DNA of 64,000 nt from Jiangella mangrovi (GTDB taxonomy: Bacteria > Actinomycetota > Actinomycetes > Jiangellales > Jiangellaceae): positions 4,092,001 through 4,156,000 of the forward strand of contig NZ_JACHMM010000001.1 in assembly GCF_014204975.1 (NCBI RefSeq), in the 5' to 3' direction. The translations under genes and the position numbers were made by a program. This document shows positions 42,725 through 55,107 of the stretch, piece by piece (the first letter of the stretch is position 1; every line of letters starts with the position of its first letter). The notes below the pieces were generated by a model that ran no database searches, was not told the origin of the DNA, and worked only from the letters and a program-made list of their open reading frames with translations.

Positions 42725-43953
42725 CGGTCGAGCAGGCGGTCGCCGACGCGCACCGTCGCGAGTGGGCCTTCGTGCTCGCCGCGACGGTGCGGGTCACGCG
42801 CGACCTCGACGCCGCCGAGGAGGCGGTGCAGGACGCCTACGTCCAGGCGCTCACCCGCTGGCAGCGCGACGGCGTGCCGGCCAAGCCCGGCGCGTGGCTG
42901 ACGACGGTGGCCCGGCGGACGGCGCTCAACGTCATCCGCCGGCAACGCACCCTGCAGGCCAAGCTCCCGCTGCTGCTCATGGACGCCGACGACGGCGGCA
43001 GCAGCGGCTCCGAGGGGCCCATCCCCGACGACCGGCTCCGCCTGATCTTCACCTGCTGCCACCCCGCGCTGGCCCAGGAGGCGCAGGTCGCGCTGACGCT
43101 GCGGCTGGTCTGCGGCGTCAGCACCCCGGACATCGCGCACGCCTTCCTCGTCGCCGAGCCCACCTTGGCCGCCCGCATCACCCGGGCGAAGAAGAAGATC
43201 GCCTCGGCCCGCATCCCGTACTCGGTCCCGTCGGCGAGCGACCTGCCCGTGCGCATCGACGCCGTCCTGACGGTGATCCACCTGCTGTACGCGACGGGGC
43301 ACACGGCTCACTCAGGCGAGAACCTGGTCCGCGACGAGCTCACCGGCCGCGCCCTCGACCTCGCCCGCATGCTCCGCCCGCTGCTGCCGTCGGAGCCCGA
43401 GACGGCCGGACTGCTGGCGCTGCTGCTGGTCCACCAGGCCCGCCGGGCGACCCGCACCGACGCCGACGGCCGGCTGCTGCGGCTGGAGGAGCAGGACCGT
43501 TCGCGGTGGGACCGGACGCTCATCGCCGAGGCGGACCGGCTGGTCGTCGGCGCGCTGCGGTCCGGCCCGCCCGGGCGGTTCGCGCTGCAGGCCGCGATCG
43601 CCGCGCTGCACGCCCAGGCGCCCAGCTACGCCGAGACCGACTGGCCGCAGATCCTCACGCTCTACGACGAGCTGCTGCGCCGCTGGCCCTCGCCGGTGGT
43701 CGCGCTGAACCGCGCGGTCGCCGTCTCGATGGTCGACGGACCCGGTCCGGCGCTCGCCGTCGTGACGGCGCTCGAGGACGACGGACGGCTGGCCGGCTAC
43801 CGCTACCTCCCCGCCACGAAGGCCGACCTGCTCTTGCGGCTCGGCCGGCACGCCGAGGCCGCGCAGGCCTACCGGGCCGCGCTGGCACTGAGCGACAACG
43901 CCGCCGAGCAGGAGTTCCTCCAGGACCGGCTCAGCCGTACGCCGCCGTCATGA
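42721..43953 (+). CDS. ECF42-type RNA polymerase sigma factor with C-terminal TPR-like extension
   Basis: About 410 residues. Sigma regions 2 and 4 occupy the first 170 or so (AHRREWAFVLAATVRVTRDLDAAEEAVQDAY, LTTVARRTALNVIRRQRTL, FTCCHPALAQEAQVALTLRL, DIAHAFLVAEPTLAARITRAKKKI). The remaining 240 residues form a helical repeat extension typical of ECF42, which is used instead of an anti-sigma factor. The conserved start TVEQAVADAHR has no ATG or GTG; the only fit is CTG at 42721, inside CTGA with the upstream stop. The next GTG (42787) would delete part of region 2. Confidence 0.88.
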   Translation: MTVEQAVADAHRREWAFVLAATVRVTRDLDAAEEAVQDAYVQALTRWQRDGVPAKPGAWLTTVARRTALNVIRRQRTLQAKLPLLLMDADDGGSSGSEGPIPDDRLRLIFTCCHPALAQEAQVALTLRLVCGVSTPDIAHAFLVAEPTLAARITRAKKKIASARIPYSVPSASDLPVRIDAVLTVIHLLYATGHTAHSGENLVRDELTGRALDLARMLRPLLPSEPETAGLLALLLVHQARRATRTDADGRLLRLEEQDRSRWDRTLIAEADRLVVGALRSGPPGRFALQAAIAALHAQAPSYAETDWPQILTLYDELLRRWPSPVVALNRAVAVSMVDGPGPALAVVTALEDDGRLAGYRYLPATKADLLLRLGRHAEAAQAYRAALALSDNAAEQEFLQDRLSRTPPS

Positions 43954-44081
43954 CCCGCCGAGCCGCCGCGTTGGCCGGCTTCGGCCTGGTCGCGATGGCG
44001 GGTTGCGGCAGCGTCGACGGCTGGGCGCGTGCCCCGTTCACGCGGCGGCGGCATCGCAACGGTGCGCGATCACTGCGCTGA
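43950..44081 (+). CDS. Truncated lipoprotein-like small frame
   Basis: A 43-residue frame overlapping the sigma gene stop (ATGA at 43950). It begins MTRRAAALAGFGLVAMAGCG, a plausible lipoprotein signal with a lipobox-like end (VAMAGC), then SVDGWARAP, and ends in a basic, unlike tail (FTRRRHRNGARSLR). The frame runs directly into the 95-nt repeat at 44055-44149, so the mature domain seems to be missing. It is probably a remnant rather than a working gene. Confidence 0.4.
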   Translation: MTRRAAALAGFGLVAMAGCGSVDGWARAPFTRRRHRNGARSLR

Positions 44082-44149
44082 GAGTGTGACGGAACTGTCG
44101 TCGGAGCGACAGTGTCGCCACATCGATCATGCAGGGATCTCACACCGAT
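44055..44149. repeat. 95-nt structured repeat, copy A
   Basis: Aligned with 54601-54695 it is 95 nt with no gaps and 62 identical positions (hand count). Blocks kept: CGCAACGGTG at the left end, TCAC, CTGTCG and CGACAGTG around a 6-nt loop, GCCAC, and GATCTCACA near the right end. Hairpin 1 is CGGTG (44060-44064) with CACTG (44071-44075). Hairpin 2 is 44086-44100 with 44107-44121. It lies between the truncated lipoprotein-like frame and the DUF1707 gene. Confidence 0.8.
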
Positions 44150-44260
44150 GGCGTTCCAAGGTGTCGGTCCGGCGGTCGGGCATGATCGTGAGTCGTCGCG
44201 GAGTCGGTATCCGTCAGACACTCCCCAGCCCGGGGCCGCGCCGGGTCGTAGGGTACGGCC

Positions 44261-44890
44261 ATGAGCACCGACGAGGCGGGCGGCCGGAGCGAGCCCGATC
44301 CGGGTCTGATGCGTGTCTCGCACGCGGACCGCGACCGCATGGTCGAGATCCTGCGCGACGCGGCGGCCGACGGCCGGCTCGACACCGACGAGCTCGAGGA
44401 GCGGGTCGAGCGCGCCCTCACCGCACGCACCTTCGCCGACCTCGAGCCGCTCGCCGAGGGCCTGCCGGTCGCGGCGCCGGCCGCCCCCGTGCCGGCCGGC
44501 CCGGCAGCAACAGCGCCGGCGGTCCCAGACGGCGAGACGCAACAGTGGAGCGTCGTCGGCCAGCGGTTCCGCCGCGAGGGCGCCTGGCAGGTGCCGCGCA
44601 CCGCCGAGCTCACCATGTTCGGCGGCTCGGTGCGGCTGGACTACACGCTCGCGCGGCTGCCCGAGGGCGGGCAGAGCACGCTCCGGCTGACGACCACCGG
44701 CGGGCGTGTGCGGCTGACGGTGCCGCCCGGGGTCGCCGTCGACCTGAGCGAGTTGGTGACCACTGGCGGCCGGGTCCGCGACCGTGCCTCGCGGCACGCG
44801 GTGCCGGGCTCGGCGGTGACGCACGTCGTCACGGTGACGGGATCGATGATGGGCGGGCGCATCCGGGTCGAGGAGTCGAAGGCGCGCTGA
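44261..44890 (+). CDS. DUF1707 / LiaF-like C-terminal domain protein
   Basis: A 209-residue protein. Residues about 16-70 are a DUF1707 (SHOCT-like) helical hairpin: LMRVSHADRDRMVEILRDAAADGRLDTDELEERVERALTARTFADLEPLAEGLP. A Pro/Ala linker follows, then a beta-helix-like C-terminal part (LTMFGGSVRLDYT, LRLTTTGGRVRLTVPPGVAVDL) resembling cell-wall-active LiaF C-terminal domains. No membrane span is present between them, unlike many relatives. The start ATG has TAGGGT 6 nt upstream (44249-44254). A cell-envelope role is likely. Confidence 0.9.
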   Translation: MSTDEAGGRSEPDPGLMRVSHADRDRMVEILRDAAADGRLDTDELEERVERALTARTFADLEPLAEGLPVAAPAAPVPAGPAATAPAVPDGETQQWSVVGQRFRREGAWQVPRTAELTMFGGSVRLDYTLARLPEGGQSTLRLTTTGGRVRLTVPPGVAVDLSELVTTGGRVRDRASRHAVPGSAVTHVVTVTGSMMGGRIRVEESKAR

Positions 44891-44909
44891 GGGTCGCCCT
44901 TCGCTCCGG

Positions 44910-44957
44910 GATCATCCAAGAAATAGGGCGCCATCACGCCCCGGAACTTGGATGATC
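44910..44957. repeat. REP-like hairpin at a convergent junction
   Basis: GATCATCCAAG (44910-44920) pairs perfectly with CTTGGATGATC (44947-44957). Inside, GGGCG (44926-44930) pairs with CGCCC (44937-44941). The outer arms extend with CTCC/GGAG. It lies between the DUF1707 gene and the pentapeptide gene and could act as a two-way terminator. The two-step hairpin looks like a dispersed REP/intergenic element rather than a simple terminator. Confidence 0.7.
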
Positions 44958-44977
44958 ATGGAGAGGCGGGCCGCTCC

Positions 44978-45751
44978 CTAGCCCCAGTGCGGCGGGCGGT
45001 CCAGGCCGGCCGGCAACCGGGTCGCGGCGTCGCCGTTGGCCGCGTTCACCTGCGGCTGGGTCAGGAACAGCGCCGTCGCCAGGTGGGCACCGCGCACGTC
45101 CGCCCCGCGGAAGTCCGCCCCGATGACGTCGGCCCGGTCGAGGTCCGCCCCGCGCAGGTCGGCCCCGATCAGGTAGGCGCTGCCCAGGTCCGCGCCCCGC
45201 AGGTCGCCGCGCGGCTTCTTCCCGATGAGGTCGGCGCCGCGCAGGTCACGGCCGGGCGTCCCCGCGCGGGCCAGCCGGGACGCCTCGCGCAGCAGCGGGC
45301 CCGCCGCCGCCCGCAGCTCCGCAACGGAGACCCCCGCCAGAACCGCAGCGGACGCCGTCGTCACCTCGGACACCCGGGCGAACAGCGTGTCCAGTGCGGG
45401 CCGCAGGGAAGCGGCGGCCGGGAACCCGCGCGCCGCGTCGACGTGCCAGAGCAGCTCGTGCAGCGGGCGCAGCACCCCGAACGCGGCGGACAGCTCGTCC
45501 CGCGCGGCCGCCGCCCCGCCGAACGTCACCTGGACGACCTGCTGACCCGCGCCGAAGCAGTCGTACACCGTGCAGCCGGGGAAGCCGCGCACCCGCAACG
45601 AGGCATGGATGCCGCAGCGGAAGTCGTCGCGCAGGTTGGGGCACGGCTCCCCCGCCGGCTTGTCGATGGCGAAGTCGGCCGAGCGCGTCAGCGCCGGGAT
45701 GACGCAACACAGTCCCGCGCAGCGAGCGCAGTCGGCTCGCAGTTCGACCAC
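44978..45751 (-). CDS. YkgJ-like Cys-cluster protein fused to pentapeptide repeats
   Basis: A 257-residue protein. The N-terminal 65 residues are a Cys-rich module (LRADCARCAGLCCVIPAL, PCPNLRDDFRCGIHASLR, GFPGCTVYDCFGAGQ) resembling the YkgJ metal-binding fold, with about nine Cys. A helical middle region follows. From about residue 165, pentapeptide A(D/N)LxG repeats form a right-handed beta helix (DLRGADLGSAYLIGADLRGADL...DFRGADVRGAHL). It may bind iron or zinc; the target of the repeat helix is unknown. The start GTG 45751 is the mirror of the dienelactone hydrolase start. Confidence 0.88.
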   Translation of the reverse strand: MVELRADCARCAGLCCVIPALTRSADFAIDKPAGEPCPNLRDDFRCGIHASLRVRGFPGCTVYDCFGAGQQVVQVTFGGAAAARDELSAAFGVLRPLHELLWHVDAARGFPAAASLRPALDTLFARVSEVTTASAAVLAGVSVAELRAAAGPLLREASRLARAGTPGRDLRGADLIGKKPRGDLRGADLGSAYLIGADLRGADLDRADVIGADFRGADVRGAHLATALFLTQPQVNAANGDAATRLPAGLDRPPHWG

Positions 45752-45771
45752 GCTCGTAGCATACGAGCGTG
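45749..45771. promoter_or_regulatory. Palindromic divergent leaderless promoters
   Basis: CACGCTCGTA-GCA-TACGAGCGTG is a perfect 10-bp inverted repeat whose ends are the GTG start codons of the two divergent genes (45751 and 45769). Plus strand: TAGCAT (45757-45762), ACGAGC, GTG. Minus strand: TATGCT, ACGAGC, GTG. Each half looks like a -10 box plus transcription start exactly at the start codon. It may also be an operator. Confidence 0.7.
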
Positions 45772-46512
45772 ACCGATGACCTGACCGCGCGGACCGTCCA
45801 CTTCCCGGGTGCGAACGGCGACGACATCGAGGGCTACCTGGCCCGGCCCGACGGCGACCGGCGGCGCGGCGGGGTGGTCGTCATCCACCACCTGCCCGGC
45901 TGGGACCGCGGCACCAAGGAGATCACCAGGCGCTTCGCCGTCATGGGCTACGACGCGCTCTGCCCGAACCTCTACTGGCGCGAGGCGCCCGGCGCGGCCT
46001 CCGACGACGCCGCCGCGGCCGCCCGGGCCAACGGCGGCGTCCCCGACGAGCGGCTGGTCGGCGACGTCGCCGGCGCGGCCGCGTACCTGCGGGCGCTGCC
46101 GACGTCGAACGGCAGGGTTGGCTCCATCGGCTACTGCTCCGGCGGCCGGCAGTCCGTCCTGGCCGCCTGCCACACCGACCTCGACGCCGCCGTCGACTGC
46201 TACGGCGCCTTCGTCACCGGCACGCCGCCCGAGGGACACCCGCTGCAGGTGCCGAACCTCGTCGACCAGCTGCCGGGCCTGCGCGCCCCGCTGCTCGGCC
46301 TGTTCGGCAACGAGGACCGCTACCCCTCGCCCGCCCACGTCGACGAGCTCGAGGACATCCTGAAGCAGCACGGCAAGAGCTACGAGATCCACCGCTACGA
46401 CGGCGCCGCCCACGCCTTCTTCGCCACCGAGCGGCCGTCCTACACCGTCGCGGCCGCCAACGACGGCTGGGAGCGCATCGGCGCGTTCTTCGAGACCCAC
46501 CTGGGGGCCTGA
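45769..46512 (+). CDS. Dienelactone hydrolase family protein
   Basis: A 247-residue alpha/beta hydrolase. The N-terminal EGYLARP and VVVIHHLPGWDRGTKEITRRFA oxyanion region, catalytic Cys in GSIGYCSGGRQSVLAA, Asp in LGLFGNEDRYPSPAHV and His in RYDGAAHAFFATERP match the DLH family (Cys-His-Asp triad). It would hydrolyse lactones or esters, possibly from aromatic degradation, but no pathway genes are adjacent. It starts at a GTG that is part of the symmetric promoter at 45749-45771. The DUF6295 gene follows 1 bp after its stop. Confidence 0.93.
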   Translation: MTDDLTARTVHFPGANGDDIEGYLARPDGDRRRGGVVVIHHLPGWDRGTKEITRRFAVMGYDALCPNLYWREAPGAASDDAAAAARANGGVPDERLVGDVAGAAAYLRALPTSNGRVGSIGYCSGGRQSVLAACHTDLDAAVDCYGAFVTGTPPEGHPLQVPNLVDQLPGLRAPLLGLFGNEDRYPSPAHVDELEDILKQHGKSYEIHRYDGAAHAFFATERPSYTVAAANDGWERIGAFFETHLGA

Positions 46513-46513
46513 C

Positions 46514-46780
46514 ATGTGCACCTACGCGACCGTGCGCACCGCCGTCGACGGCAGCGCCAAGGGCCCCGGCGGCGCCTGGTTCCACGTCAGCGACGCTACC
46601 GTCTACTTCGACCATCCGGTGCACGCCATGGCCGAGCACACGCTCAACATCGACCTCGCTGACCCGTCCCGCGGGCCGGGCCAGCGGGTGGCCGTCGAGC
46701 TGACGGCGTCAGCGGCGCGTGAGCTGGTGGCCGCCATCGAGGCCGCCCTCGCCTCCGCGCCGCCGGAGCTGACCCGGTAG
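46514..46780 (+). CDS. DUF6295 family small protein
   Basis: An 88-residue protein beginning MCTYATVRTAVDGSAKGPGG and continuing WFHVSDATVYFDHPVHAMAEHTLNIDLADPSRGPGQRVAVELT. The pattern MCTY-x4-T-x-V-x-GSAKGP, then D-A-TVYFDHPVHA-x-x-EHTLNID, is that of the actinobacterial DUF6295 family. The role is unknown; the conserved His/Asp residues could bind metal. It begins one base after the dienelactone hydrolase stop, so it is the second gene of that operon. Confidence 0.85.
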   Translation: MCTYATVRTAVDGSAKGPGGAWFHVSDATVYFDHPVHAMAEHTLNIDLADPSRGPGQRVAVELTASAARELVAAIEAALASAPPELTR

Positions 46781-46795
46781 CCGACGCCGTCGGGC

Positions 46796-47446
46796 TCAGG
46801 CCCGCTCGAACCGCGCGTGCACGGCCTTCTCGCCGGCGGTGAAGCCCGTGCACGTGTACCCGCGGAAGCCGGCGCCGTCGTCGAACAGCCGCTCGCCGCC
46901 GCCGAGCAGCACCGGCGAGATCGCGATCTCCATCTCGTCGATCAGCCCGGCGTTCAGGTACTGGCGGATGGTGGCCGCGCCACCGGCCACGAGGGCGTCC
47001 TTGCCGTCGGCGGCCGCGAGGGCCTGCTCCCGGGCCGCCTCGATGCCGTCGGTGACGAAGTGGAAGGTCGTGCCGCCCGCCATCTCGACCGGCCGGCGCG
47101 CGTGGTGGGTCAGCACGAAGACGGGGTGGTGGTACGGCGGGTTCGGGCCCCACCAGCCGGTCCAGGTCTCGTCCGGCCAGTCGCCGCGGACCGGGCCGAA
47201 CATGTTGCGGCCCATGATCGTGGCGCCGATGTTGCGCCAGTTGCGCTGGACGTAGTCGTCGTCGACGCCGACGGACGCGGCCGCGGTGGGATCGGCGGCG
47301 TTGAACGTCGGGGTCACGACGGCCCAGTCGTGCAGGCTCTCGCCGCCGATGCCGAGCGGGTTCTCGAGGCTCTGCTCGGGTCCGGCGCCGTAGCCGTCGA
47401 CGGACACGGAGAACATGTGGACGCGGAGCTTCTGTGTGGTCGTCAT
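46796..47446 (-). CDS. Dihydrofolate reductase-family protein (RibD C-terminal fold)
   Basis: A 216-residue protein of the RibD C-terminal/DHFR-like fold: LRVHMFSVSVDGYGAGPEQS, ATIMGRNMFGPVRGDW, VFVLTHHARRPVEMAGGTTFHFVTDGIEAA, and DALVAGGAATIRQYLNAGLIDEMEIAISPVLLGGG near the C-terminus. These NADPH-dependent reductases are common in actinobacteria and often substrate-unassigned. It converges on the DUF6295 gene with a 15-bp gap and lies 35 bp after the Ku gene on the same strand. Confidence 0.92.
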   Translation of the reverse strand: MTTTQKLRVHMFSVSVDGYGAGPEQSLENPLGIGGESLHDWAVVTPTFNAADPTAAASVGVDDDYVQRNWRNIGATIMGRNMFGPVRGDWPDETWTGWWGPNPPYHHPVFVLTHHARRPVEMAGGTTFHFVTDGIEAAREQALAAADGKDALVAGGAATIRQYLNAGLIDEMEIAISPVLLGGGERLFDDGAGFRGYTCTGFTAGEKAVHARFERA

Positions 47447-47481
47447 GTCCGTAGGTCGGAGTCGGGGACGGAACTTCTACA

Positions 47482-48363
47482 TCATGCCGCCGACTTCTTC
47501 TTCGCGGGAGTCTTCTTCCTTGCCGGCGACTTCTTCTTGGCGGCGCTCGCCTTCTTCGCGGGCGCCTTCTTCTTCGTCCCCGACCGGGACTTCTTCGCCG
47601 CGGCGACACTGTCCTGGAGCGCGGTGAGCAGGTCGGTGACACCGGTGGCGGCCGGCGCGGACTCGGTGACGACGTCCTCGCCCTTGCGCTTGGCGTCGAC
47701 GAGGTCCTCGACCCGCTCGGTGTAGGTGTCGTGGTACCGCTCGGGCTTCCACGCCTCGGTCATCGCCTCGATGAGGTCGACGGCCATGTCCAGCTGCTTG
47801 CCCTTGGACGCCGCCTTCGGCAGGTCGCCGAGCTCCTTGCCCGCGTCGCGGATCTCGTCGGCGAAGTACATCGTCTCGAGGACGAGCACCTGGCCCGAGG
47901 CGCGCACGCAGGCGAGGTACTCCTTGCCGCGCATGACGAACTTGGCGACGGCGGCGCGGTCGGTCTTCTGCAGCGCCGTGCGCAGCAGCCCGTACGAGGA
48001 GGCGTTGTCGTCGTCGCCCGGCCCCAGGTAGTAGCTCTTCTGGAAGTGGATCGGGTCGATCTCGGCGAGCTCGACGAACTGCTCGATCTCCAGCGCCCGG
48101 GACCGGCCCGGCGCGATCTCCTCGAGCTCGTCCTTCTCGACGATGACGTACTCGCCGCCGCTGACCTCGTGGCCCTTGACGATGTCGTCGTACTCGACCT
48201 CGTCGCCGGTGCGCTCGTTGACCCGCTTGTAGCGGATCCGGTCCGACGTGCCGCGCTCGAACTGGTGGAAGTCGACCTCGTGCTCCTGTGTGGCCGAGTA
48301 CAGCCGCACCGGGATCGACACCAGCCCGAAACTGAGGAATCCGCTCCAGATCGACCGTGCCAT
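47482..48363 (-). CDS. ku: Ku protein, non-homologous end joining
   Basis: A 293-residue Ku. MARSIWSGFLSFGLVSIPVRLYSAT is the family start, followed by DFHQFERGTSDRIRYKRVNERTGDEV and the bridge region YYLGPGDDDNASSYGLLRTALQKT. Residues 1-250 or so form the core beta-barrel ring that threads DNA ends. The C-terminal 40 residues are Lys/Ala-rich (KKKAPAKKASAAKKKSPARKK), as in Streptomyces and mycobacterial Ku. It bridges double-strand breaks with ligase D, which is not in this window. The start is ATG 48363, with TACGGA 7 nt upstream. Confidence 0.96.
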   Translation of the reverse strand: MARSIWSGFLSFGLVSIPVRLYSATQEHEVDFHQFERGTSDRIRYKRVNERTGDEVEYDDIVKGHEVSGGEYVIVEKDELEEIAPGRSRALEIEQFVELAEIDPIHFQKSYYLGPGDDDNASSYGLLRTALQKTDRAAVAKFVMRGKEYLACVRASGQVLVLETMYFADEIRDAGKELGDLPKAASKGKQLDMAVDLIEAMTEAWKPERYHDTYTERVEDLVDAKRKGEDVVTESAPAATGVTDLLTALQDSVAAAKKSRSGTKKKAPAKKASAAKKKSPARKKTPAKKKSAA

Positions 48364-48414
48364 GCTCCGTTCCGTACCCGCATGGGCGGCGAGCACGCGG
48401 GTAACCGGCCCACC

Positions 48415-49017
48415 ATGAGAGCCGTCCTGCTGAACTGCACCCTCAAGCCGTCCCCGCAGCCCTCCAACACCGGCGCGCTGGCCGACGTCGTCGCCGGCTT
48501 CCTGCGCGACGACGGCGTCGACGTCACCTCGTACCGGCTGGCCGACCTGAACGTCCCGCCGGGCGTCGAGACCGACCTGGGCGACGGCGACGACTGGCCG
48601 ATGGTGCACGACGCGATCCTGGCCGCCGAGATCCTCGTCGTCGCCAGCCCGACCTGGGTGGGCCGCCCGTCGTCGCTGGCACAGCGGGCGCTCGAGCGCC
48701 TGGACGCGCTGATGTCCGAGACCGGCGACGACGGCCGGCCGGTCGCGTTCGACAAGGTCGCCGGCGTCGTCGTCACCGGCAACGAGGACGGCGCGCACCA
48801 CGTCATCTCCGAGATCTGCGGCGGCCTGGTCGACTTCGGGTTCACCATCCCGGGGCAGTCGTGGACCTACTGGCACCTGGGCCCCGGCCCGGGTCCGGAC
48901 TACCTGGACGAGACGAAGGGCCACGAGTGGGCGCACTCCACCGGCCGGACCATGGCCGCCAACCTGGTCGCGGCGGCCCGGGCGCTGGCCGCGTCGCCGC
49001 TCCCGAAGCCGAGCTGA
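48415..49017 (+). CDS. NADPH-dependent FMN reductase / flavodoxin-fold protein
   Basis: A 200-residue flavodoxin-like protein. It opens MRAVLLNCTLKPSPQPSNT (FMN phosphate loop) and has ILVVASPTWVGRPSSLAQRALERLDALM (isoalloxazine loop) and KVAGVVVTGNEDGAHHVISEI. It probably reduces FMN or quinones with NADPH. It is divergent from Ku, with 51 bp between the starts; TAACCG lies 7 nt before the ATG. It converges on gvpK (14-bp gap). Confidence 0.9.
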   Translation: MRAVLLNCTLKPSPQPSNTGALADVVAGFLRDDGVDVTSYRLADLNVPPGVETDLGDGDDWPMVHDAILAAEILVVASPTWVGRPSSLAQRALERLDALMSETGDDGRPVAFDKVAGVVVTGNEDGAHHVISEICGGLVDFGFTIPGQSWTYWHLGPGPGPDYLDETKGHEWAHSTGRTMAANLVAAARALAASPLPKPS

Positions 49018-49031
49018 CGCCGTCGGGCCGC

Positions 49032-49325
49032 TCACTCCCCCAGCAGCGGGCCGAGGGGGCCCAGGTCGAGGTTGAGGTCCTGGACGGTCAGGCCGTACCG
49101 GCCGCGCAGGTCCGTCATCGCCTGGTCCAGCCGCATCAGCGCCTGTCCCAGCGCCTCGACCTGCTCGTCGCTGAGGTCGCCCTCGTCGACCCGGCGCAGC
49201 GCCTGGCGCTCCATGAGCTGGCGGACCAGCTCGACGATGGTGAGGACGAGCTTGAACAGGTCGCGCTCGACGGAGTCCGCGTCGGTGTCGATGCGCCGCG
49301 GCAGCGCGTGCACCGGCGCGGTCAC
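49032..49325 (-). CDS. gvpK: Gas vesicle protein GvpK
   Basis: A 97-residue GvpK from GTG 49325, overlapping the gvpS stop (GTGA). ADSVERDLFKLVLTIVELVRQLMERQALRRVDEGDLSDEQVEALGQALMRLDQAM and LGLTVQDLNLDLGPLGPLL-like ends match the family. It is the last gene of the cluster; GvpK is a minor component needed for correct vesicle assembly. A longer frame upstream lies inside gvpS and gvpL and is rejected. Confidence 0.9.
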   Translation of the reverse strand: MTAPVHALPRRIDTDADSVERDLFKLVLTIVELVRQLMERQALRRVDEGDLSDEQVEALGQALMRLDQAMTDLRGRYGLTVQDLNLDLGPLGPLLGE

Positions 49326-49525
49326 CGCGTCTCCTCCGCCCGGATCGAGCGGATCAGCGCGTGCAGGCGCACCTCCACCAGGTCCACCCCGGCGAGGGAG
49401 ATGACGATGTCGCCGGACAGGACGACGCCGGCGCCGAGCAGCCGGTCGAGCAGGTCGACCAGCGCGATCTGCGCGGTCGGCCATCCCTCGGGCCGGGCCG
49501 GCGCCGCCGTCGACGCGGCCGTCAC
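49322..49525 (-). CDS. gvpS: Gas vesicle protein GvpS (GvpA/J/M-like)
   Basis: A 67-residue protein from GTG 49525, overlapping the gvpL stop by 4 bp. TAQIALVDLLDRLLGAGVVLSGDIVISLAGVDLVEVRLHALIRSI is a short GvpA-fold module: helix, beta hairpin, helix. It lacks the longer N- and C-terminal ends of GvpA. In actinobacterial clusters this gene between gvpL and gvpK is named gvpS and is thought to be a minor shell or assembly component. Confidence 0.85.
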   Translation of the reverse strand: MTAASTAAPARPEGWPTAQIALVDLLDRLLGAGVVLSGDIVISLAGVDLVEVRLHALIRSIRAEETR

Positions 49526-50307
49526 GCGCCCTCCTCCATCGCGACGAACGAGTACGCCGGCCACGGCCCGGCCACCACGATGTGGCAGTCCGCGTACCGC
49601 TCTCGCAGCACCTCGACCGCTGCCTCGAACCGGTCGGAGTCGTCGATCGGCACCAGGTAGGCGCCGTTGAGGCTCATCGGTGTCTCGCCGCCGGTCAGGC
49701 GCTGGTCCTGCACCGTGAGCCGGCGGGCGTCGACGGCGTGAGCGGCCAGTTCGGCGTGCACCTCGTCGGCGGCCGCCGTCGCGCGGGCCAGGGCGTCGTC
49801 GCGGGCGGTCGAGGCGGCCTTGCGCCGGATCAGGTAGGCCGCGCCGGAGCCGGGCGTCCCGGCCGCCGGCACCGGCTCCGCCACGGGGTCGGGCGACGAC
49901 GTGGGCAGCCGCGGCGCGAACACCTTGACGCTCCACTCGGCCCGGCCGGTCACTTCGTCCAGCGCGCGCCGGAAGCCGTCGTGCCACCGCTCCAGCCGCT
50001 CGCGGACACCGTCGTCGTCGGCGCAGATCGTGGCCAGCCGCAGCGGCGCCGCCGGGACCGCACGCGCGACTCCGTCGACGACGGCGTGATGGGCCCGCGC
50101 CGCGTGCTCCAGCCAGCCGAGGTCGTTGAGGTTGCGGGCCAGCGCCTCCTCGCCGAACGCGCCGACGTCGACGGTGCCGACCACCGCGACGAGGTCGCGG
50201 TGGCGGACGGCGCGCACTGGCTCCCCCGCCACGCCGCGCAGACCGTCGAGGACGCCGTCGTCGACCGGAGCCGCGATGGCGTACAGGTAGCAGCCGGACT
50301 CACTCAT
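49522..50307 (-). CDS. gvpL: Gas vesicle protein GvpL (GvpF/L family)
   Basis: A 261-residue GvpF/L protein: SESGCYLYAIAAPVDDGVLDGL at the start and the C-terminal LNGAYLVPIDDSDRFEAAVEVLRERYADCHIVVAGPWPAYSF, with GPWP-Y-F typical of the family. ATG 50307 is used (AAGGA 8 nt upstream); ATG 50313 is too close to the same site. Together with GvpF it forms accessory complexes that bind GvpA and prevent premature aggregation. Its start overlaps the gvpJ stop. Confidence 0.92.
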   Translation of the reverse strand: MSESGCYLYAIAAPVDDGVLDGLRGVAGEPVRAVRHRDLVAVVGTVDVGAFGEEALARNLNDLGWLEHAARAHHAVVDGVARAVPAAPLRLATICADDDGVRERLERWHDGFRRALDEVTGRAEWSVKVFAPRLPTSSPDPVAEPVPAAGTPGSGAAYLIRRKAASTARDDALARATAAADEVHAELAAHAVDARRLTVQDQRLTGGETPMSLNGAYLVPIDDSDRFEAAVEVLRERYADCHIVVAGPWPAYSFVAMEEGA

Positions 50308-50581
50308 CGGCATCGTCCTTCGCGCTCCCCGAGAGCATCGGGTCGCGGCGCCACCAGTCGATGCCCATCTCCTGCGCCTTGTCGACCGACGCCACCAGCA
50401 GCCGGATCTTGATCGTCAGCAGCTCGATGTCGAGCAGGTTGACCCGGATGTCGCCGGCGATGACGATCCCCTTGTCCAGCACCCGCTCCAGGATGTCGGC
50501 GAGGTTCGCCGGCTGCGGCGGCGCCGCCAGCGACGAGCCGTAGGGCCGGGTGAGCGGCGCGCGCTCTCTGGCCTCCGTCAT
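50300..50581 (-). CDS. gvpJ: Gas vesicle protein GvpJ
   Basis: A 93-residue GvpA/J-family protein. A variable N-terminus (LTRPYGSSLAAPPQPANLA) precedes DILERVLDKGIVIAGDIRVNLLDIELLTIKIRLLVASVDKAQEMGIDWWRRDP. The IDWW-R-DP ending and position mark it as GvpJ, the minor component thought to shape vesicle ends, rather than the main shell protein. It starts 4 bp after the gvpO stop. Confidence 0.9.
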   Translation of the reverse strand: MTEARERAPLTRPYGSSLAAPPQPANLADILERVLDKGIVIAGDIRVNLLDIELLTIKIRLLVASVDKAQEMGIDWWRRDPMLSGSAKDDADE

Positions 50582-50585
50582 GGGG

Positions 50586-50843
50586 TCAGTCCTCCTCCTT
50601 GGACGAGCCGCGGGTGTACCTGCGCACCCGCTTGTAGCTGGTCAGGTCGCCCTCCCCGTCGAGGTCGACGGCGTACTCGGCCAGCACGTCGGTGGAGTGC
50701 GGGATGCGTTCCAGCTCGAGCACCTCGACCCGGACCCGCCAGCCGTCGTCGTCCTTCTCCAGGCCGGTGACCGCCTCCGCGACCCGCCCGCTCAGCATCG
50801 CCAGTTGCTCGACCGCACGCGCGGCCGCCTCCGTCGCCTTCAC
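50586..50843 (-). CDS. gvpO: Gas vesicle protein GvpO
   Basis: An 85-residue GvpO from GTG 50843, overlapping the gvpG stop (GTGA). VEQLAMLSGRVAEAVTGLEKDDDGWRVRVEVLELERIPHSTDVLAEYAVDLDGEGDLTSYKRVRRYTRG is the complete family domain, with ERIP-x2-TD-x2-A-Y and the Y-x-R-x3-Y-x-RG end. It is one of the small proteins needed for vesicle formation. In Streptomyces gvpO lies at the head of the cluster; here it sits between gvpG and gvpJ. Confidence 0.9.
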   Translation of the reverse strand: MKATEAAARAVEQLAMLSGRVAEAVTGLEKDDDGWRVRVEVLELERIPHSTDVLAEYAVDLDGEGDLTSYKRVRRYTRGSSKEED

Positions 50844-51058
50844 AACAGCCGTCCGATCAGCTCGTCCTCCATGGCTACGGCTTCCTCCTCCGACAGCAGG
50901 CCCGCGGCGCGGTCGCGGTCGACCTGCTCCAGGGCGCGCTGGATGGCGGCGGGGTCGCGGTACTGCCGCTCCGCCTCGTCGGCGATGAGCCGGGCCACCG
51001 CGACCACGCCGCGCACCGGCGCCAGCGGCAACGTGACCAGGCCGGTCAGGAGGCCCAT
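50840..51058 (-). CDS. gvpG: Gas vesicle protein GvpG
   Basis: A 72-residue Gvp[73 protein letters not shown] is the whole family domain, described here in parts as the LP-x-AP-x3-V core, then E-x3-Y-DP and G-x-[IL]-SEEE. It is helical and soluble and acts with GvpF. Its start overlaps the gvpF end by 13 bp. Confidence 0.9.
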   Translation of the reverse strand: MGLLTGLVTLPLAPVRGVVAVARLIADEAERQYRDPAAIQRALEQVDRDRAAGLLSEEEAVAMEDELIGRLL

Positions 51059-51849
51059 GTGTCGTCGCCCGGCACGAAGTCGTACGGCGCCGTCGGGCCG
51101 ACCAGCCGGACCCGGCCGCGCCCGGCCAGGCCTTGGGCCGCCTCCTCGGCGGCCTTCTCGAACTGCTCGAGCCGCTCGTCGGCCACCAGGAACGCGACGT
51201 CGACCAGGTGGTCCGCCTCGCCGGCGGCCCGGATGTTCCAGCCCGCGGCGTGTGGCGTGAGCAGGTCGAGCAGGGTCGCGCTGTCGACGTCGCGCTTCAC
51301 CTCGAGCGCGCGGGACACCAGCTCGCCAAGCCGGATCCGCTCGTTCCAGCTCGACTCGACCGACCGGTCACGGGTGTCGTCGCGCAGCCGGGCGATCTCG
51401 GGATGCTCCTGCACGATCTCGGCCAGGACGGCCTCCTCGTCGTAGCGTGCCCGGACGACGAACTGACGGTGACCCCGCAGCTCGTCGAGCACCGAGGCGA
51501 AGAAGTCCGCGTTCGGCGCGAGCAGTCCCGTGACGACGTCGCCCGTGTCGGCCATGACGGCGCCGAACCGCACGGGGATCACGGCGCAGTGCCTGGCCAG
51601 CGCGTCGGTGACTCGGCTGTGCGCGAGCAGGTCGTCGCGCCGGCCGAACGGGCGGTCCGTGACCACCTTGCCGACGACGGCGGCGACGTGGTCGTGCGCG
51701 ATCACCTCGATGCCGCCGTCGTCGATGCCGGTGAGATCGTCGGGCACGGCCGTGCCGGACGGCACGATCGCGTACACGTACTGTGCCGTCAGCCCGGCCG
51801 AGCCCGTCGTCGGCTCGTCCATGGTCGCCCCCGGTTCCGTGAGCGTCAT
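51046..51849 (-). CDS. gvpF: Gas vesicle protein GvpF (GvpF/L family)
   Basis: A 267-residue GvpF/L protein. The N-terminal domain includes [21 protein letters not shown] and [22 protein letters not shown], and the C-terminal part has [24 protein letters not shown] ending [13 protein letters not shown]. It binds GvpA subunits during assembly. The start ATG overlaps the gvpA stop (51846-51849), so production is coupled to the shell protein. GvpF and GvpL here are paralogues. Confidence 0.92.
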
Positions 51850-52271
51850 TCGCTCTCGCTCCTCTGCCGCCGGCGAGAGGTCGTCTTCTTCGCCGGACGG
51901 CGCCGTTCCTCGTCCTCGTCGTCGTCCCCGCCAGTGAAGGCATCCTTGATGCCCTCGATGGCGCCTTGGGTCTTGCCCTTGGCAGCCTGGTGGACGCCGT
52001 TGCCCATGAGCTCCGTGAGGTCCTTGCCGCCGTGCTCGTACAGGTCGAGCCGGTTGGTCGCCTCCGCGAAGCGCAGATACGTGTCGACACTGGCGACGAC
52101 GATGCGGGCGTCGATGGTCAGCAACTCGATGCCGACCAGCGAGACGCGCACGTACGCGTCGATCACCAGGCCCTTGTCCAGGATGATGTCGATGACATCG
52201 GCGAGCCCGCTGGGCGACGGGCGCTGGAGCTGGCCGCCGCCGCCGGAGCGTCGCTGGTTCACCACAGTCAT
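51846..52271 (-). CDS. gvpA: Gas vesicle shell protein GvpA
   Basis: A 141-residue major shell protein. The GvpA core is about 20-80: [53 protein letters not shown]. It self-assembles into the gas-permeable, water-tight rib wall. A C-terminal extension of about 60 residues ([20 protein letters not shown], then mixed acidic and basic residues to RRRQRSESE) is longer than in classic GvpA but is seen in actinobacterial forms. It is the first gvp gene, 36 bp after the SRPBCC gene. Confidence 0.93.
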
Positions 52272-52307
52272 GTGCTCACCTCTCGGTCTCGTTGATCGCC
52301 GGGCCCC

Positions 52308-53510
52308 TCATCGGGCGCGGGCCCGGGCACGACGCCGGCGGGGCTTGGGCTCCTCGTCGGCGGCCTCGTCCTCGACGGGCTCCTCGTCCTCGACGGGCTC
52401 CTCGTCGGCGGCCTCTTCGTCCTCGGCGAGGTCCTCCTCGCCCTCCTCGGCCGGCTCGTCCTCGTACTCGTCGGCCTCGGCGTCGGTCTCGTCGTCGGCG
52501 GGCTCGTCCTCCTCGACGTAGTCCTCCTCGCCGTCCTCGGCGGGCTCGTCCTCGTACTCGTCCTCGGCGAGGTCCTCCTCGCCCTCCTCGGCCGGCTCGT
52601 CCTCGTACTCGTCGCCCTCGGCGGCGTAGTCCTCGTCCCGGCCCTCGTCATCGGCCTCGGCGGCCTCGCGCTCGCGCGCCTCCTCGTCGGTCTCCTCGAC
52701 CTGGCTGTCGTGGATCTCGCCGCGCCAGCCCTCGACCTGGTCCGGGTCCTGGAGGAGGTTCATCATCACGTGCCGGCGGAAGTGCTTGAGCTCGAGCCGC
52801 GCACGGCGGCCCTGGGCCCGCCAGAGGTTGCCGGTGCGCTCGAACAACCCCTTGGGGTAGTACTCGAGCACGACGACGACCCTGGTCAGTCGCGGTGCGA
52901 GTTCGTGGAACGTCACCGCGCCGTCGACGTGGCCCTTCTGACCGGACGAGCGCCAGACGATCTGCTCGTCGGCGACCTGGTCGATGATCGTCGCCGACCA
53001 CGTGCGGTGCGACCAGAAGACCTGCGCCTTGAAGTCGAGTTTCTCGTCTTCCTTCTGCTCGACGTTCTCGACCTTCTTCATGAATTTCGAGAAGTCCTGG
53101 AACTGCGTCCACTGGTTGTAGACGACGCTGACCGGCGCACCGATGTCGATCTCCTCGATGATGTTCATCGCCTTGGTCGCCTTGTCGCCCTTGCCGCCAC
53201 CGCCCTTGCCACCGCCAGTGACCGCGCCGACGACCTTGTCCTTGACGCCGGTGAGGGCGCCCTTGACCGCGCCCGGCACACCGTTCTTCGCGGCACCCGC
53301 GAGCGCGGCGCCGCCGACGGAGCCGCCGGCGGCGACGTCGTCGAGCTTGTCGGTCGCCTGGCTGATCTTGTCCCCGGCGGACTTGACCGCCCACTCGCCG
53401 AGCGAGGTGAGGCCGTTCTTGGCCTCGTCCTTGAGCCGGTCCAGCGGCAGTTCGTCGACCAGGCCACGCAGACCCTGGTCCGGACGGCCTTCGATGTCAG
53501 TGCGTGCCAT
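52308..53510 (-). CDS. SRPBCC (cyclase/START-like) protein with long acidic repetitive tail
   Basis: A 400-residue protein in three parts. The first 110 or so residues are a helical, Gly/Lys-rich region (GVKDKVVGAVTGGGKGGGGKG). The SRPBCC lipid-binding fold lies at about 115-265 (MNIIEEIDIGAPVSVVYNQWTQFQDFSKFMKKV; VWRSSGQKGHVDGAVTFHELAPRLTRVVVVLEYYP). The last 120 residues are Glu/Asp repeats with EYEDEPAEEGEEDLAEDE units and a basic end (RRRRARARAR). Such SRPBCC proteins accompany actinobacterial gvp clusters. The tail may bind cations or partner proteins; that is inference. Confidence 0.88.
   Translation of the reverse strand: MARTDIEGRPDQGLRGLVDELPLDRLKDEAKNGLTSLGEWAVKSAGDKISQATDKLDDVAAGGSVGGAALAGAAKNGVPGAVKGALTGVKDKVVGAVTGGGKGGGGKGDKATKAMNIIEEIDIGAPVSVVYNQWTQFQDFSKFMKKVENVEQKEDEKLDFKAQVFWSHRTWSATIIDQVADEQIVWRSSGQKGHVDGAVTFHELAPRLTRVVVVLEYYPKGLFERTGNLWRAQGRRARLELKHFRRHVMMNLLQDPDQVEGWRGEIHDSQVEETDEEAREREAAEADDEGRDEDYAAEGDEYEDEPAEEGEEDLAEDEYEDEPAEDGEEDYVEEDEPADDETDAEADEYEDEPAEEGEEDLAEDEEAADEEPVEDEEPVEDEAADEEPKPRRRRARARAR
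52420..52614. repeat. 54-bp perfect direct repeat within the acidic tail
   Basis: Positions 52420-52473 and 52561-52614 are identical over 54 bp, with starts 141 bp (47 codons) apart, in frame. They encode an 18-residue Glu/Asp-rich unit. A related imperfect unit lies between. The exact repeat suggests recent slippage or recombination and a length-variable tail. Confidence 0.85.
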
Positions 53511-53515
53511 TCAGG

Positions 53516-54151
53516 TCACCCCCTCGACCCGGAGCGCGTCCGGCCGGACGACGCGCTCTTCTTCGTCGCCGACTTCTTCGCCGTCTTCTTGGCGGCGGCG
53601 GTCTTCTTGGTAGCGGTGGTCTTCTTGGCAGCGGTCCGCTTGCGCGCGGGCGCGTCGCTGCGCGACGACGCGGCCTTCTTCGCCGGGCGCTTGCGCGGGC
53701 GGGGCCGCTCGTCCTTCGTGTCCTCGGGCTCGCGCTCGTCGGCTTCGCGCTCGTCGGTGTCGCGCTCGTCAGGCTCGTTCTCGTCGCTCTCGCGCTCGTC
53801 GGCCTCGTCGCTCCCCCGCCCGATCGGGACCTTGTCGGTCACCGCGCCGGTCAGCAGGTCGGAGCGGTCGCGGATGGAGTCGCTGACCGCGTTGATGCGG
53901 TTGCTCACGACGCCCACCGCCGCGCCGCGCGCCGCCATGAACAACGTCGTGCGTACCTGGTCGGAGAGCTTCGCCAGCTCCGGGCGGCTCTCGATGAGCT
54001 CGTTGGCCTGCCGCAGCATGCCCTTCGGATCGGTGGCCAGCCGCTTGCCGGCCAGCATGCTGCCGACGGCGATGGCCAGCTTCAATCTCTTCCTGCGGCC
54101 CAGGATGTAGCCGCTGGCCGCCGCTGCGGCGACCCGGGTGGCCGTGTTCAT
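53516..54151 (-). CDS. Gas-vesicle-associated protein with histone-H1-like basic tail
   Basis: A 211-residue protein from ATG 54151 (GGGAG upstream). An N-terminal hydrophobic segment (ATRVAAAAASGYILGRRKRLKLAIAVGSMLAG) is followed by a helical region (LRQANELIESRPELAKLSDQV), then an acidic stretch of Asp/Glu pairs (ESDENEPDERDTDEREADEREPED) and finally a Lys/Ala-rich tail (KRTAAKKTTATKKTAAAKK) like histone H1 or Ku tails. It lies 5 bp upstream of the SRPBCC gene. I do not know a name; similar proteins occur in actinobacterial gvp clusters. It may link vesicles to nucleic acid or membrane. Confidence 0.78.
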   Translation of the reverse strand: MNTATRVAAAAASGYILGRRKRLKLAIAVGSMLAGKRLATDPKGMLRQANELIESRPELAKLSDQVRTTLFMAARGAAVGVVSNRINAVSDSIRDRSDLLTGAVTDKVPIGRGSDEADERESDENEPDERDTDEREADEREPEDTKDERPRPRKRPAKKAASSRSDAPARKRTAAKKTTATKKTAAAKKTAKKSATKKSASSGRTRSGSRG

Positions 54152-54248
54152 CACTCACTCCCTTTGTGGGGATTCGTACTGTTTGGGGGTATTGCTGCGG
54201 CGTACCCCACGAGGTCTGCGGCAAACGATCACCGCGTGCCGGACGCCC

Positions 54249-54476
54249 TCAGGCGGCCAGCCTCAGCACCCGCTGGATCATCGGGATGCTCGGATAGAAG
54301 TCGTCGTCGATGTGCGCGAGGAGGATCGCCGCATAGTCGGCGAACTCCTCCTCGGTGAGCAGTGCCTCGATCTGGTCGAGCATCGTCGACGACGGGTAGA
54401 GGTCCGCCTCCACCTTGCGCATCAGCGAATCGAGGAGCAGTTTGCGTACGACCTCGGTGGGCTGCTGCTTCGCCAT
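54249..54476 (-). CDS. Small conserved-looking protein of unknown function
   Basis: A 75-residue acidic protein from ATG 54476. KQQPTEVVRKLLLDSLMRKVEADLYPSSTMLDQIEALLTEEEFADYAAILLAHIDDDFYPSIPMIQRVLRLA shows an internal echo, MRKVEADLYPSSTMLDQIEALL against LLAHIDDDFYPSIPMIQRVL (D-x-YPS-x2-M-x2-[IL] twice). It is probably two helical hairpins packing on each other. I do not recognise the family. It is 97 bp upstream of the first gvp-associated gene, on the same strand, and may be co-expressed. Confidence 0.7.
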   Translation of the reverse strand: MAKQQPTEVVRKLLLDSLMRKVEADLYPSSTMLDQIEALLTEEEFADYAAILLAHIDDDFYPSIPMIQRVLRLAA

Positions 54477-54600
54477 GGATCCTCCAGAGCCGGGTCGGGA
54501 ACTCGACTCTGATCGGTTACCACCTGCGCTCGACCCCAAACGGTGCGTTCCGGACGTTCCGGGCGCTTCTCATGAAGTCTTCGGACCGGACGTCAGCATG

Positions 54601-54695
54601 CGCAACGGTGTGCCGTCACCGCCGCGACGGTGTGGCATCGCTGTCGCTCTGACGACAGTGATGCCACCCGCTCCGCGCACCGATCTCACATCGAT
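54601..54695. repeat. 95-nt structured repeat, copy B
   Basis: Second copy of the element at 44055-44149, same orientation in the window and same length. Hairpin 1 is CGGTG (54606-54610) with CACCG (54617-54621). Hairpin 2 pairs 54632-54646 with 54653-54667: 15 bp around a 6-nt loop, with one G-T pair. Copy B's second hairpin is fully paired, while copy A's has two mismatches. It sits at the end of a hydrolase remnant. Confidence 0.8.
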
Positions 54696-55107
54696 TCACG
54701 TGCCCCATGGCACCGGCGCGCGGAGGCGCGAGTTGCGCACGATGGAGGTGGGTCTCGATGAGCCAGTGGCCGGCGTCGTTGATCAGGTGCAGCTCGGCGT
54801 CGGGCAGGTCGTCGAGGTAGGCGGCACCCGCCTCGGCCGGCAGATAACCGTCGTGCGGACCCCACACGATCAGCGCCGGCGGACGGTGTTCGCGCAGGTA
54901 GGCCTGGAACTCCGGGAAGGACGCCACGCTCTCGCGGATGCGTCCCATCAGCTCGACCATGATCGCCCGGTTGTCCGGCTCGCGCATGCGGGCCCAGGCC
55001 AGCCGCCAGAGCTCCGGTGAGATCCTCTCGCGCACGCGCTCCGGCACCTCGCCGAGCACCTCCGCGCGCAGCCCGTCCTCGGCGCCAGAGCCACGGGCAC
55101 GGGTCAT
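54616..55107 (-). pseudogene. Alpha/beta hydrolase remnant (C-terminal part only)
   Basis: The frame begins MTRARGSGAEDGLRAEVLGE and gives a normal alpha/beta hydrolase C-terminus: FPEFQAYLREHRPPALIVWGPHDGYLPAEAGAAYLDDLPDAELHLINDAGHWLIETHL, with the acid Asp (GPHDGY) and catalytic His (AGHWL). The nucleophile half, about 180 residues, is missing. After position 54745 the sequence no longer resembles the family and runs into the 95-nt repeat. It is a gene fragment. Confidence 0.75.

Follow-up and report, generated by a model that had tools for sequence, protein, structure and literature searches.

The element described here most closely resembles three kinds of bacterial repeat: repetitive extragenic palindromes (REPs) together with the REP doublets forming hairpins known as REPINs, REPs tagged with CGTC, and miniature inverted-repeat transposable elements (MITEs) of the IS5 family. 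It is a palindrome of ~95 bp, found twice (copy A, 44055–44149; copy B, 54601–54695) in a 64,000-nucleotide stretch, hereafter the window, of a genome of the genus Jiangella. With REPs and REPINs it shares an intergenic palindromic form, conserved inverted arms, a covarying spacer hairpin, many copies and a preference for convergent genes, but each half is here built of two direct motif copies, and neither a Y1 transposase (in 12 genomes) nor a GTAG or CGTC tag is found. The CGTC-tagged REPs, in the excerpted text of their description (PMC3733652), are likewise palindromic repeats that seem to have no transposase of their own, but they carry the tag and are 20–40 bp long. Nearest to the IS5-family MITEs are the copies of one subfamily, the A type, lying in units of ~235–350 bp (where both ends are seen) whose ends, GGGxGTGTCTGACGGATC, are shared with an IS5-family element in this genome and in a second genome, G010, and with a TA duplication at one traced site. 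The A type differs from such MITEs in that its amplified interior is a palindrome which also exists alone and in other units, and in that several copies keep one outer end only; copy B has no IS5-type terminal repeats beside its core.

We conclude that the element is a dispersed, non-coding palindromic repeat, and that the family to which A and B belong is new and of REP/MITE-like kind; literature searches returned no description of such a repeat in Jiangella, which is not proof of absence. The explanation that we favor, and hold to be probable, is that the family spread as non-autonomous mobile DNA and was in part amplified as cargo of IS5-type MITEs. Copy A probably spread by riding inside the remnant of a small transposon; copy B is of an older, free-standing core type. 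With it, a family of dispersed palindromic repeats becomes known from an actinobacterial genus; since no Y1 transposase was found in that genus, the family lends itself to the question of how palindromes of REP-like type are spread when there is no REP-associated tyrosine transposase (RAYT).

Copies A and B had been singled out in an earlier note, made from the letters of the window, as a paired element that might be mobile DNA of the MITE or REP type or a structured RNA. Their alignment is as counted there, with 62 of 95 bases identical and no gaps; at the base composition of the window (random identity 0.30), such a match has P = 1.6e-12 per pair, and ~0.007 pairs like it are expected across the whole window. 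Since the element is palindromic, A aligns about equally well with B in reverse complement (63 bases at offset 3). The two are not a pair, however, but members of a larger family. The covariance-model search of this genome and its relatives that the earlier note had suggested used a 28-copy alignment with an RNAalifold structure of 18 pairs and scored the best 150 of 11,741 first-look candidates, own-genome counts being lower bounds: 119 strand hits at E ≤ 2.1e-4 merge to at least 61 sites in 51 clusters of the 7.16-Mb genome, and 137 strand hits at E ≤ 1 merge to at least 71 sites, the window containing A and B only. As plain sequence queries at E ≤ 0.001, copy A returns 20 other matches in its own genome (70–86% identity) and copy B 14, at 13 places, one of them read on both strands.

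The family extends to other actinomycetes. At E ≤ 0.001, 19 of 40 genomes searched have matches: the own genome, all 11 of the same genus, six of 10 from the same family and one of 18 from the same class outside the family. Copy number is uneven between species. The most similar genome at both loci, G011 (92% identical at A, 88–90% at B), yields seven hits at E ≤ 0.01, amounting to four weak sites (best E 3.3e-5), against the at least 61 sites here, and G009 has at least 105 hits. An exact 20-base arm, scanned in named genomes (a set that may omit records very close to the window), gave one match, in Sorangium, that was judged to be chance. In a tree of 91 of the 119 copies (those scoring below 45 or matching over a short length were dropped), copy A belongs to a group of 16 copies that all come from this genome (clade support 0.97), and copy B to a clade of eight copies from three species (support 0.90). 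Many copies, uneven numbers and the empty sites described below support the suspicion of a MITE/REP-type mobile element.

The cores in the window and the parts of core A are as follows.
44055–44149, plus strand: copy A, the palindromic core belonging to the subfamily that has been amplified here (94.5 bits in the covariance search; in the clade of 16)
44059–44076, plus strand: left outer arm of core A, pairing with the right arm (alignment columns 6–23)
44082–44125, plus strand: inner hairpin of core A (alignment columns 29–73)
44131–44148, plus strand: right outer arm of core A (alignment columns 80–97)
54601–54695, minus strand: copy B, core of the free-standing type (82.6 bits on the minus strand, 73.2 on the plus)

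The ends that the earlier note saw kept in both copies are indeed conserved, but they are the complementary arms of one palindrome: the family consensus ends in CGGTGTGAGATC and GATCTCACACCG, the core arm reads AACGGTGTGAGATC, and in the ideal form 18 columns of the outer arms AACGGTGTGAGATCGCTGC and GCAGCGATCTCACACCGTT complement each other, with an inner stem of 20 columns closing a four-base loop. Read from the alignments, the ideal core consists of four copies of a 16-base motif, CGGTGTGRSATYGCTG, two direct and then two inverted. In the A subfamily, several mid-stem pairs of the inner hairpin are degraded. All six strands folded lie below all 200 of their shuffles (z −3.9 to −10.6; −3.9 and −4.1 for A, −5.1 and −5.6 for B on their two strands), and five of them, including both strands of A and the plus strand of B, form one long hairpin; the minus strand of B forms three. 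Of the two separate hairpins proposed previously, the first is a real alternative, present in the minimum-energy fold of the B minus strand and in the RNAalifold consensus of 28 copies (which favors this short, local left-arm hairpin together with the inner stem), but the reading as separate hairpins is only one among several folds.

Both pair changes quoted for the second hairpin are present (44091/44116 is G–C in A and 54637/54662 A–T in B; 44094/44113 is A–T in A and 54640/54659 G–T in B), and the question of covariation could be put to more sequences using a 38-pair structure named from the alignment, with 500 shuffles and the slid structure as controls. Among 28 copies, 78.3% of cells pair and the covariation score is 0.181 (0.139 shuffled, at most 0.091 slid); in a set of 32 copies, from which the A clade was left out and into which other species were taken, pairing is 80.0% and the score 0.197 (0.149 shuffled, at most 0.106 slid). 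The score exceeds every shuffle and every slid control, but two of the five measures (both-side changes and further pair types) are not above shuffles in either set. Covariation beyond the controls indicates that something maintains the palindrome. Paired changes can also arise when a palindrome is repaired by template switching, and those seen here may reflect either selection or such repair.

The evidence for mobility is most specific in the A lineage, where shared ends, shared flanks, a single clade and one TA target duplication are observed. Several A-like copies share flanks ending in TAGGGxGTGTCTGACGGATC on one or both sides. The 14-base outer motif, GTGTCTGACGGATC, occurs at 30 sites here with at most one mismatch (none in the reversed control) and lies beside nine of the 16 copies of the A clade; 11 of the 61 listed core sites have it within 400 bp, and 12 of the 30 motifs are near a core. 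L011 shows both outer ends clearly, and in L014 and L022 the second end is diverged. An IS5-family element of G010 terminates in this motif, and a related one here does so with one change: G010 holds five exact motif pairs, each spanning 1,011 bp and bounded by CTAG at both ends (5/5), and the related element is present three times here, 99.8–100% identical and also with CTAG at both ends (3/3). Transposase pieces of both elements match the IS5 model NF033580 above its cut-off, the own transposase lying in two reading-frame pieces (E 3.4e-39 and 2.5e-36). A-type units therefore show the terminal repeats shared with an insertion sequence, the target duplication and the cognate transposase by which IS5-type MITEs are recognized, and the MITE branch of the earlier proposal is supported for this type.

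Beside copy A itself, the following features were delimited.
44208–44226, minus strand: surviving outer terminal repeat (GGGGAGTGTCTGACGGATA), with the 14-base motif at 44208–44221 (one mismatch)
43976–44054, plus strand: probable degenerate left part of the MITE body (limits approximate, by eye from a ten-copy alignment; best kept at ~44030–44054)
43960–44967, no strand assigned: ~1-kb segment with copy A, a DUF1707 gene and a second palindrome (limits approximate; ~130 bp instead in G011)

No left-hand partner of the outer repeat was recognized beside copy A. The insertion of A cannot itself be read, because the whole ~1-kb segment is missing from G011 and, at the 11 loci taken from the 11 genus genomes, nothing at this place matches A. 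The sigma-factor gene adjoining it, which had been taken for truncated, has the same stop as in G011.

Comparison of flanks with genomes lacking a copy covered 14 sites in G011 and G001, of which seven are empty in one relative (L019, L030, L031, L034 and L035 in G011; L022 and L026 in G001). At L022 (1.44 Mb) the unit is bounded by TA on both sides here, and G001 has a single TA within CCCTAGAG. L019 (2.95 Mb) is a 244-bp insertion relative to G011, one side of which carries an outer end and the opposite side the bare core. Of the remaining sites, L012 lies inside a larger difference of ~750 bp, L025 and L033 face other inserts in the relative, and L028, L040, L024 and L103 offer one usable flank or none. 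The comparison yielded one empty site that reveals a TA duplication around an A-type unit, and no clean boundaries for insertions of the free type. Flanking direct repeats, examined as a sign of short target duplications at free cores, are no commoner than at random positions (118 copies, 354 controls), a few long ones excepted: 109 bp at L107, 40 at L035, 23 at L037, 17 at L027 and 14 at L018, with four of 22–100 bp among the controls. At L107 (3.092 Mb) three cores stand in a row, the middle one flanked by the perfect 109-bp direct repeat, which suggests a tandem duplication.

Copy B represents the free-standing type. No IS5-type outer motif (up to three mismatches) lies within 3 kb of it. 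In G011 its flanking sequences are 59 bp apart, against 172 bp here, and the element is absent; relative to that genome the insertion has blurred limits and shows no obvious target duplication. Copy B is not outside coding sequence, as had been stated of both copies, for it overlaps the end of the following open reading frame.
54616–55107, minus strand: alpha/beta hydrolase gene remnant whose frame continues into copy B (Abhydrolase_1, E 5.2e-6, profile positions 191–244 of 245)
This gene lacks ~470 bp present in G011, such that the truncated gene reported at each copy is found at B only.

Taken together, these observations are consistent with a scheme in which one core lineage, that of copy A, came to lie inside a miniature element with IS5-family ends and was then amplified to ~16 copies as cargo, the IS5 transposase presumably moving A-type units in trans. 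Free-standing cores of the B type are the more diverse, and common to several species. Most copies are situated directly 3′ of a gene, in many cases where two genes converge; there a transcribed hairpin is probably tolerated or might serve as a two-way 3′-end structure.

Several observations weigh against this account. For fifty of the 61 listed core sites the nearest 400 bp contain no outer motif, and 18 of the 30 motifs are without a core nearby (these terminate units or insertion sequences that carry no core), such that the association concerns one subfamily; copy A and L019 retain one outer end only. The TA duplication is traced at L022 only, and at the same site G011 has a different ~82-bp sequence whose ends are similar. 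Insertions of the free type (L030, L031, L034, L026 and L035) include extra sequence or duplication, leaving the ends of a free insertion undefined; at L035 (~1456–1589) the insertion with its free core lies between two direct copies of a 63-bp sequence that G011 has once. A copy here (L032) and one in G008 (L141) occupy the same place beside a tRNA-Phe gene, indicating that some copies persist through speciation, and the convergent bias described below depends on our own gene caller and a 64-kb background. Finally, no transposase with ends matching the core was found, which leaves the spread of free copies such as B unexplained. The search for an autonomous partner took in cores ~1 kb apart, where the pair at 575.7/576.8 kb encloses an AbiEi-like gene and no transposase.

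The ~82-bp sequence in G011 (L167) hints at repeated insertion at one CTAG. A second candidate for a common site, L029 and L150, was rejected; the two share a neighborhood, but their cores do not coincide in the alignment.

We next consider whether the cores sit within other units elsewhere in the genus. In G009, 9 to 11 of 18 other loci share most of the 700 bp beyond the L116 cores, the number falling to four in two short stretches; the unit ends there are of the types CTAG-TTCGCTTGGTCT and CTAG-CTGAGTGAGTCCGATTGATCT. With at most one mismatch, CTAG-TTCGCTTGGTCT occurs 24 times in G009, three times in G008, once in G004 and not at all in G003, with reversed-control counts of one, one, one and two, respectively. 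The copies in G004 share yet another left flank (by eye). The same core therefore occurs within repeated units of different kinds, and this nested arrangement (an IS5-type MITE here, other units in sister species) points to the repeat having been recruited as cargo. A variant of the explanation, which we regard as unlikely, sees in the palindrome a cargo module, possibly a two-way transcription terminator, that different miniature transposons took up independently in different Jiangella species: carriers with IS5-type ends here, with CTAG-TTCGCTTGGTCT ends in G009 and G008 and with another shared flank in G004. With such cargo, an insertion close to the end of a gene would do no harm or would be of use, which would favor the survival of the carriers.

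The position of the cores relative to genes bears on the possible function of the family. Using a codon-usage gene caller made for this analysis, with the 64-kb window as background, we could class 56 of 60 copies (window and own loci) as lying between convergent (34), tandem (18) or divergent (4) genes; counted by region, 24 of 45 are convergent, 17 tandem and four divergent, against 11 convergent among the 51 intergenic regions of the window (11% of intergenic bases). In 28 of 52 copies a neighboring gene end lies within 50 nt of the start of the copy. Because of this bias, a role at mRNA 3′ ends can be tested directly; together with the strong, covarying stems on both strands of A and B, the bias would suit a core that is a functional bidirectional terminator or mRNA 3′-end stabilizer, spread by selection and mobile only secondarily. 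We consider this possible but doubtful. A scan for intrinsic terminators (a GC-rich stem followed by a T run) found none at A or B, the two copies scanned, and there is no T run after the stem in either; both sites are empty of the element in G011; and the loss of several mid-stem pairs did not keep the A subfamily from multiplying. A similar bias is described for REPs and for stem–loops in general in the excerpted texts of PMC3733652 and PMC1590033, such that convergence alone demonstrates no function, and tolerance of insertions would give it too. Terminator activity as such is a possible property of the core.

A conserved structured RNA, either a small RNA or a cis element with paralogous copies, would account for the strong folding and for a covariation score above all 500 shuffles and every slid control, but is quite improbable given that the element is missing from the orthologous G011 loci of both window copies and that 0 of 11 genus loci match copy A at its place. 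In the window no match attains the gathering threshold of an Rfam family, and three Rfam matches at E ≤ 1 at six other loci are all below the gathering score. The stretches scanned at both copies hold no sigma-70-like site, the palindrome gives an RNA no clear strand, two of the five covariation measures fail to exceed shuffles, and template-switch repair offers another source of paired changes. More improbable still, and for the most part refuted, is a family of REP or REPIN elements mobilized by a RAYT. The look is the same (inverted arms, a hairpin spacer with compensatory changes, intergenic position and many copies, as in the excerpted text of PMC3116915), but PF01797 (Y1_Tnp) has no match in any of the 12 genus genomes while being positive in five of 14 control genomes, and by eye the core ends in the alignments are AACGG...CCGTT, with no GTAG or CGTC tag; the repeat is therefore not a REP in the strict sense. 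Chance similarity, which the high G+C content of the window (72.5%) might have favored and which the earlier note named as a possible refutation, has a negligible probability and is refuted by the ~0.007 pairs expected in the window and the at least 61 genomic sites found by the model.

Having weighed these alternatives, we retain spread as non-autonomous mobile DNA, in part as IS5-type MITE cargo, as the best explanation of the family. Some further features of the loci concerned were noted in passing. The AbiEi-like gene at 575–577 kb (L115/L177) has the palindrome at its 3′ end and lies between genes that by eye are oppF-like and typA-like; compared with this genome and G008 (L176), G009 (L175) has gene and palindrome in inverted orientation.

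Near copy A, a reading frame of 43 codons (MTRRAAALAGFGLVAMAGCGS..., 43950–44081) overlaps the sigma-factor stop as ATGA and runs into the copy; its start is lipobox-like (by eye), and in G011 the ATG is kept and the remainder differs. The second palindrome of the ~1-kb segment (44910–44957) is of another kind, with GATCAT...ATGATC ends and a length mostly of 47–55 bp, that is also present at L011, L023, L037, L041, L043, L048, L051 and other loci. Its pattern matches 17 times in the window and own loci and in none of 20 shuffled windows; one of the 17, at 44125–44187, overlaps copy A and is probably due to chance.

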